Of a stretch of DNA of 64,000 bases, positions 320 to 57,816 are shown piece by piece. The translations under genes and the position numbers were made by a program. The notes under the pieces were generated by a model. The model was not told the origin of the DNA. It searched no databases and saw only the letters and a list, made by a program, of their open reading frames with translations. The DNA comes from Desulforamulus hydrothermalis Lam5 = DSM 18033 (GTDB lineage: Bacteria; Bacillota; Desulfotomaculia; Desulfotomaculales; Desulfotomaculaceae), in the NCBI RefSeq assembly GCF_000315365.1, contig NZ_CAOS01000003.1, positions 248,001-312,000 of the forward strand. The letters run 5' to 3'. Every line of letters starts with the position of its first letter. The first letter of the stretch is position 1.

Positions 320-347
320 AAAAAGCTCGCCGGAAAAACCGGCGAGC
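320..347 (-). terminator. Intrinsic terminator at the end of the glpT transcript
   Basis: Read on the minus strand, a 9-bp stem (GCTCGCCGG / CCGGCGAGC) with a T5 loop is followed directly by TTTTT. It is the distal one of two near-identical hairpins flanking repeat element copy 1; the proximal one (616-637) has no T tract on this strand. Confidence 0.75.
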
Positions 348-637
348 CCAGACTGTAGACAAAGGTTGTGAAACAAAGTGAGGTGGTTTTATGATCCCCT
401 GTCGGCGACTTGTCGAAGCACCGGTAACAGCACTTGATGAGCGAAAGGAGCACTTGGGGTGGCGCCCACAGGACGTGGGCGCCAGCCGAACCGGGCCAGG
501 AGGGCCCGTTTGAGGCGACCCCAAGGGCCACCGGAGCGAATCATAGTGCTGTCGGTGCGTAGACCGGAGCCAAAGGGGATCATAAACCACCGCTAATGTT
601 TGTTGACACTCTGAGTTCGCCGGAAAAACCGGCGAGC
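325..637 (+). repeat. Terminator-embedded structured element, copy 1 (with its flanking hairpins)
   Basis: The core at 349-613 (265 bp) is bounded by imperfect terminal inverted repeats, CAGACTGTAGACAAA on the left and CAGAGTGTCAACAAA (reverse complement of the right end). Inside is a subterminal inverted repeat, about 18 bp, at 382-400 and 574-592, whose right arm reads AGGGGATCATAAACCACC. Several inner hairpins follow, including one built on GGCGCCCAC / GTGGGCGCC. The core is flanked by two copies of the hairpin CGCCGG-AAAAA-CCGGCG at 325-347 and 616-637. Copies 2 and 3 share the core closely but have different flanking hairpins. No credible coding content is seen. I read it as a MITE-like non-autonomous element. 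Confidence 0.85.
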
Positions 638-678
638 CCAGATTGTTTTTTAACTTGTCAAACTGCTATGGCAGTACC

Positions 679-17978: not shown

Positions 17979-18281
17979 GAGCCGGGTTTTCCCGGCTCAA
18001 ACTGTTGACAAAGGTTGTAAAACAAAGTGAGGTGGCTTTATGATCCCCTGTCGGCGACTTGTCGAAGCACCGGCAACAGCACTTGATGAGCGAAAGGAGC
18101 CATTGGGGTGGCGCCCACAGGACGTGGGCGCCAGCCGAACCGGGCCAGGATGGCCCGTTTGAGGCGACCCCAAGGGCGACCGGAGCGAATCATAGTGCTG
18201 TCGGTGCGTAGACCGGAGCCAAAGGGGATCATAAACCACCAATAGTGTTTGTCTACACGCTGAGCCGGGTTGTCCCGGCTC
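17979..18281 (+). repeat. Terminator-embedded structured element, copy 2 (with its flanking hairpins)
   Basis: The core at 17999-18261 (263 bp) is very similar to copy 1, including the subterminal inverted repeat ending AGGGGATCATAAACCACC and the GGCGCCCAC / GTGGGCGCC hairpin. Ends are AACTGTTGACAAA and, on the other strand, CAGCGTGTAGACAAA. The flanking hairpins at 17979-17998 and 18262-18281 share the stem GAGCCGGG / CCCGGCTC; their loops are TTTT and TTGT. This hairpin is unrelated to that of copy 1. It lies in the 3' region of the ArsB/NhaD-type gene. Confidence 0.85.
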
Positions 18282-48341: not shown

Positions 48342-48633
48342 AGCAGTCCACCCGGACTGCTCAGGCTGTAGACAAAAAAGTCAAGGTGGTTTAATGATCC
48401 CCTGCCGGCGACTTGTCGAAGCACCGGTCACAGCACTTGATGAGCGAAAGGAGCCATTGGGCTGGCGCCCACAGGACGTGGGCGCCAGCCGAACCGGGTC
48501 AGGATGGCCCGTTTGAGGCGACCCCAAGGGCGACTGTAGCGAATCATAGTGCTGTCGGTGCGTAGACCGGAGCTAAAGGGGATCATAAACCACTATTACG
48601 TTTGTCGACACTCTGGCAGTTCCCACGGACTGC
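48342..48633 (+). repeat. Terminator-embedded structured element, copy 3 (with its flanking hairpins)
   Basis: The core at about 48362-48615 (254 bp) is similar to copies 1 and 2 but is the most diverged (for example GTTTAATGATCCCC in the left subterminal arm). Ends are CAGGCTGTAGACAAA and, on the other strand, CAGAGTGTCGACAAA. The flanking hairpins at 48342-48361 and 48616-48633 share arms GCAGT(C)C / GGACTGC and differ only in loop and one bulge. It lies between the hydrogenase operon and the convergent YkgJ-type gene. Confidence 0.85.
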
Positions 48634-48707
48634 TTAATTAGTTACCTGCGATTTTGTTAAAACACCAACCACAGCACACATGAGCAAAGGAAAAATGAGA
48701 TAATCTT

Positions 48708-51952: not shown

Positions 51953-52014
51953 CTATGACTGGTATGTCATAGCCAGACTGTAGACAAAGGAAAGTCAAGG
52001 TGGTTTAATGATCC
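51953..52014 (+). repeat. Terminator-embedded structured element, copy 4 (left-end remnant)
   Basis: A hairpin with arms CTATGAC / GTCATAG (51953-51972) is followed by CCAGACTGTAGACAAAGG and then GTCAAGGTGGTTTAATGATC, as in copy 3. The similarity stops at 52014; the right half and second hairpin are absent. On the minus strand the hairpin is followed by TCTTTTT and so forms the terminator of the membrane protein gene at 52047. Confidence 0.75.
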
Positions 52015-52046
52015 TTATTTAAGTTTGCTGCCGTCCCCCACTTGAA

Positions 52047-57719: not shown

Positions 57720-57816
57720 AGGGACAGGAAAACCTGTCCCTAGAGTGTCGCCAAACATTATCGGTGGTTTATGATCCCCTTTGTCTACAGTCTGAGGGAC
57801 AGGAAAACCTGTCCCT
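57720..57816 (-). repeat. Terminator-embedded structured element, copy 5 (53-bp deletion derivative)
   Basis: Two identical 22-nt hairpins (arms AGGGACAGG / CCTGTCCCT) at 57720-57741 and 57795-57816 enclose 53 bp holding both element ends and the right subterminal arm (on the minus strand GGGGATCATAAACCACC). On the minus strand the sequence passes from CTGTAGACAAAGG straight into GGATCATAAACC, so the core between two CAAAGG repeats is missing. The right hairpin overlaps the stop codon of the globin sensor gene by one base. Confidence 0.8.

Follow-up and report, generated by a model that had tools for sequence, protein, structure and literature searches.

The repeat that begins near the left edge of this stretch of Desulforamulus hydrothermalis DNA is a MITE (a short non-autonomous transposon) that lies between two copies of an intrinsic-terminator hairpin, and its interior is the Rfam RNA TwoAYGGAY. 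Our results support its description as a MITE of the IS1182 group with a structure-defined target duplication and an orphan RNA as cargo. We hold it very probable that an IS1182-family DDE transposase mobilizes this TwoAYGGAY-carrying MITE in trans, and that the target of insertion is an intrinsic terminator hairpin, which is duplicated whole. The evidence comes from the window (the whole 64-kb stretch of DNA that was analysed), from further copies in the 2.69-Mb host genome (16 contigs, whose sequence was analysed in stretches around elements), and from related genomes in which the same sites are empty or an IS with the same ends is present.

The element and its copies

The core of 265 bp is bounded by terminal inverted repeats (TIRs) of 15 bp, CAGACTGTNGACAAA. 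An initial annotation had described a MITE-like element from three copies in the window, and the element is indeed short, non-coding, multi-copy and TIR-bounded; all three full copies are present, with bounds correct to within 1-2 bp. That annotation had also noted that left and right hairpins agree within each locus and differ across loci, which holds for the window copies, and had mentioned a deleted fifth copy, which corresponds to a 54-bp element flanked by two identical hairpins. The features of the window are as follows (strand in brackets; a point marks features given without one).

324..348 (.) duplicated terminator hairpin, left, copy 1, AGCTCGCCGGAAAAACCGGCGAGCC; called as a minus-strand terminator whose T-tract lies away from the element
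349..613 (+) MITE copy 1, 265 bp; TIRs at 349-363 and 599-613
411..565 (+) TwoAYGGAY RNA (RF01731) within copy 1; 58.5 bits, cut-off 43
614..638 (.) duplicated hairpin, right, copy 1, AGTTCGCCGGAAAAACCGGCGAGCC
17980..17997 (.) hairpin, left, copy 2, AGCCGGGTTTTCCCGGCT; single hairpin in G001 and G006
17998..18262 (+) MITE copy 2, 265 bp; TwoAYGGAY at 18060-18214
18263..18280 (.) hairpin, right, copy 2; T-tract directly after
48343..48361 (.) hairpin, left, copy 3, GCAGTCCACCCGGACTGCT; single hairpin in G001 and G008
48362..48615 (+) MITE copy 3, 254 bp; TwoAYGGAY at 48414-48568
48616..48634 (.) hairpin, right, copy 3, GCAGTTCCCACGGACTGCT
51953..51972 (.) hairpin preceding a solo element end
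51974..52015 (+) truncated element, left end alone
57720..57740 (.) hairpin, left, mini-element, AGGGACAGGAAAACCTGTCCC; single hairpin in G001
57741..57794 (-) mini-element, 54 bp, both TIRs, without the RNA core
57795..57815 (.) hairpin, right, mini-element; second identical 21-bp AGGGACAGGAAAACCTGTCCC

Two further sequences of the window resemble decayed mini-elements. Beyond the right hairpin of copy 1, positions 639-665 read CAGATTGTTTTTTAACTTGTCAAACTG, with TIR-like ends in inverted order, and GGCAGTCTGA, just before the left hairpin of the mini-element (57720), is likewise TIR-like; each is possibly such a remnant. At another locus (L101:683-857), the right hairpin copy is followed by CAGACTGCAGGCAAA, a stretch of 15 bp in which the right end of the element recurs exactly, as its reverse complement. 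A second element seems to have inserted here into the duplicated hairpin, in inverted orientation, and to have left this remnant.

Across the host genome, a pattern derived from the core has 78 matches at up to three mismatches, and a TIR pattern has 240 matches as against 30 for a reversed-pattern control, so that about 100 elements are a fair estimate for the genome. The 70 distinct elements with clear ends range from 42 to 272 bp. One class of 114 bp is without the RNA, and its deletion joint lies at a CTGTCGG repeat, which points to an origin by slippage. Since this class does without it, the RNA is probably dispensable for mobility; alternatively, these copies may have been shortened after insertion. 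In being short, non-coding, TIR-bounded and present in many copies, presumptively moved in trans, the element resembles other bacterial MITEs (reviewed in PMC10969869). It differs from the IS1182-linked MITEs of Methanosarcina acetivorans (PMC3852290), which have 4-bp or no duplications, in that its duplication is variable and corresponds to a terminator hairpin.

Duplication of the target hairpin

The initial annotation had proposed that insertion into terminators duplicates a hairpin-sized target, a proposal that both the empty sites and the flanks of copies throughout the genome bear out. At the site of copy 2, Desulforamulus putei (G001, contig NZ_FQUY01000014.1) and G006 have one hairpin; at that of copy 3, D. 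putei and G008 have one; and at that of the mini-element D. putei has one, beside a rearranged stretch. These three window sites thus hold a single hairpin, not two, when empty. A syntenic empty site for copy 1 was looked for in related genomes and was not found. The same comparison extends to a full-length IS with the same ends (described below), one copy of which in G008 has its empty site in G003, with a single TGGTATACTTTTAGTACACCA.

When left and right flanks were compared by local alignment, 59 of the 70 elements scored at least 24, whereas none of 417 mismatched between-locus pairs reached this threshold (maximum 21); the within-locus agreement seen in the window holds for most elements genome-wide. 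Among the 11 elements that fail this test, two (L072 and L092) have direct repeats of only 7-8 bp and no hairpin, so that insertion outside hairpins may occur.

The duplication, 12-29 bp long for the MITE, is one whole intrinsic-terminator hairpin, and its length follows that of the hairpin: stems of any length have the ends of the duplication at their foot. This can be read from a complementarity profile of the 41 elements whose repeat abuts both ends without a gap, in which bases were paired symmetrically about the repeat centre. Inside the duplication, pairs 2-8 are complementary in 78-88% of cases and the outermost pair in 63%, while complementarity falls to at most 49% immediately outside and to 15-29% by 9-12 bases out. 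Insertion sites lie near the ends of the adjacent open frames, with a median distance of 43 bp to the stop codon, and have A-rich and T-rich runs beside them.

The two resulting hairpins are not equivalent as terminators. The initial annotation had supposed that a terminator is kept at both ends; a hairpin is indeed kept at both, but the T-tract stays on the far side only (4.8 T among the 8 nt that follow the right hairpin copy, against 2.1 for the left), the near hairpin having lost it. In copy 1 the terminator call falls, as expected, on the far hairpin. Transcription from the neighbouring gene should therefore cross the whole element before the far hairpin ends it, and insertion would then be nearly harmless.

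A probable IS1182-family partner and the reading of the target

Although the host genome lacks a close copy of the partner transposase (best match E 3e-4), an IS of 1604-1607 bp bounded by the TIRs of the MITE is present in sister species (G001 and G008). MITE and IS have the ends CAGACTGTNGACAAA / CAGAGTGTCGACAAA in common, and their likeness is confined to these 15-16 bp. The IS product of 490-539 aa matches the IS1182 family transposase model NF033551 of NCBIfam (456 and 447 bits, cut-off 270) as well as PF13751 and PF05598, and is an IS1182-type DDE transposase. The suggestion in the initial annotation that IS1182-type elements might be relatives was thus well founded, since this IS has the same ends and makes the same hairpin duplications. 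Two distant IS1182-like (PF13751) genes of the host genome were considered as partners and rejected, as they are without the ends of the MITE. The putative partner accordingly comes from the sister species, and an autonomous copy may lie in a gap between the 16 contigs of the host; mobilization of the MITE in trans by an IS1182-family transposase is what the common ends would imply.

Hairpin duplication is not restricted to this group. Eighty relatives of the IS transposase were collected from public genomes, 56 of them with both flanks, and at 37 of these 56 loci, across Bacillota, we found a hairpin-forming duplication, 20-36 bp long, among others in Peribacillus, Romboutsia, Bacillus, Saccharibacillus and Christensenellaceae. 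In a genome of another family (G016, probably Pelotomaculum thermopropionicum), five of the copies examined, whose ends are related, likewise have duplicated hairpins.

The closest known relatives in this respect are IS1272 and TnSha1 of staphylococci, which also have a transposase of the IS1182 family and a hairpin target. That target is often the terminator of a transcript, and its primary sequence follows no consensus. IS1272, however, removes its target hairpin (PMC4923244, PMC5678879), deleting part or all of it with no duplication; its hairpin-replacing mechanism does not describe the present loci, where the entire hairpin is duplicated. Duplication of a whole stem-loop has been drawn as a hypothetical alternative (PMC5678879, Fig. 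13, pathway b), and our literature search found no account of hairpin duplication by IS1182 elements, although an earlier notice is possible in ISfinder or in subscription papers.

The target duplication made by most DDE transposases has a constant length. In the present elements its length follows the palindrome and its ends fall at the stem foot, so that the target seems to be recognized by its structure, which suggests that the transposase responds to the shape of the DNA and does not count off a set number of bases. In our interpretation, the most likely mechanism is that the palindrome extrudes as a cruciform whose two feet the transposase attacks, as in the hypothetical pathway b of PMC5678879. 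The 3' ends of the element would be joined to the 5' foot of each cruciform arm, and gap repair would then copy the whole hairpin. Each insertion leaves two hairpins, which could be targets again.

Several other explanations must be weighed against this one. The double hairpins could be something other than target duplications, if the element were a cassette bringing its own hairpins or happened to lie between two pre-existing terminators. A few loci with unlike hairpins at their two ends would fit such a view, such as L039 in G007 and most of the 19 unmatched loci among the 56 IS1182 loci above, which come mainly from MAGs; a better explanation for these mixed hairpins, and the likely one at the 19 loci, is that copies have recombined or that the assembly is at fault. 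Against such a view, hairpin sequence varies from locus to locus while matching within each, and the single hairpin of the empty sites refutes this explanation for four loci. Moreover, the five IS copies of G008, identical at 99.75-100%, sit in five different hairpins, each of them duplicated. We regard this explanation as having next to no chance of being correct.

Two remaining alternatives accept the duplication and differ as to what is recognized, and both seem to us improbable, to the same degree. In one, the transposase reads sequence features of terminators (the A-tract, the T-tract or a stop-proximal position) or the transcription machinery, the palindrome being incidental; the nearness of stop codons and the A-rich and T-rich runs beside the sites speak for it, but the boundaries of the duplication stay at the stem foot across lengths of 17-36 bp, the boundary bases are not constant and no fixed stagger is seen. 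In the other, the target is a single-stranded hairpin, formed for example during transcription termination or lagging-strand replication, in place of the double cruciform. Terminator sites could be preferentially exposed during transcription, and group IIC introns use terminator hairpins as targets; a full duplication, on the other hand, needs joining on both strands, at the two opposite feet of one hairpin, and the elements lie as often in the direction of the neighbouring gene as against it (9 sense, 9 antisense).

The TwoAYGGAY cargo

The interior of the MITE matches the Rfam family TwoAYGGAY (RF01731) over its full length, with 58.5, 58.1 and 50.3 bits against a gathering score of 43, an identity that the initial annotation, made from the letters of the sequence, could not reveal. 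TwoAYGGAY was described in 2010 as a candidate RNA (Weinberg 2010, PMC2864571), and binding of CsrA has been proposed for it (PMC4333381). The MITE interior agrees with it in having AGGA in both hairpin loops; the two loops read ACAGGAY and CCAGGAY, with the AGGA conserved at 96-100% in 52 copies. RNAalifold found few double changes (11 cells) in these 52 copies, whose close similarity leaves too little variation to test for covariation. As far as the available text of PMC2864571 and PMC4333381 goes, the RNA is not called mobile, whereas in the present elements a multi-copy MITE carries it as payload. Four other TwoAYGGAY RNAs (L036, L040, L043 and L035, in G005, G003, G008 and G009) cap long inverted repeats whose ends are different, which suggests that MITEs of more than one kind carry the RNA about.

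Among genomes of the class, csrA is present in 22 of the 27 with TwoAYGGAY and in 40 of the 86 without it (p=0.0017, kinship ignored). This co-occurrence is significant without being exclusive, and is in line with the published proposal of CsrA binding. The balanced orientation of the elements relative to the neighbouring gene gives no sign of a 3'-UTR function. It is conceivable, if rather doubtful, that a terminator-homing transposon spreads predicted CsrA-binding hairpins into the 3' UTRs of dozens of genes, the copies acting as a distributed CsrA sponge; since the far hairpin would still end transcription, the payload would be transcribed from host promoters and the genes left undisrupted.

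For these genomes, the element explains how an orphan Rfam RNA has come to be spread in many copies, and it describes a choice of target that would be nearly harmless while two hairpins remain at each insertion. For the IS1182 family, deletion of the hairpin by IS1272 and its duplication here are two opposite outcomes within a single family of transposases, and the published cruciform model becomes directly testable.
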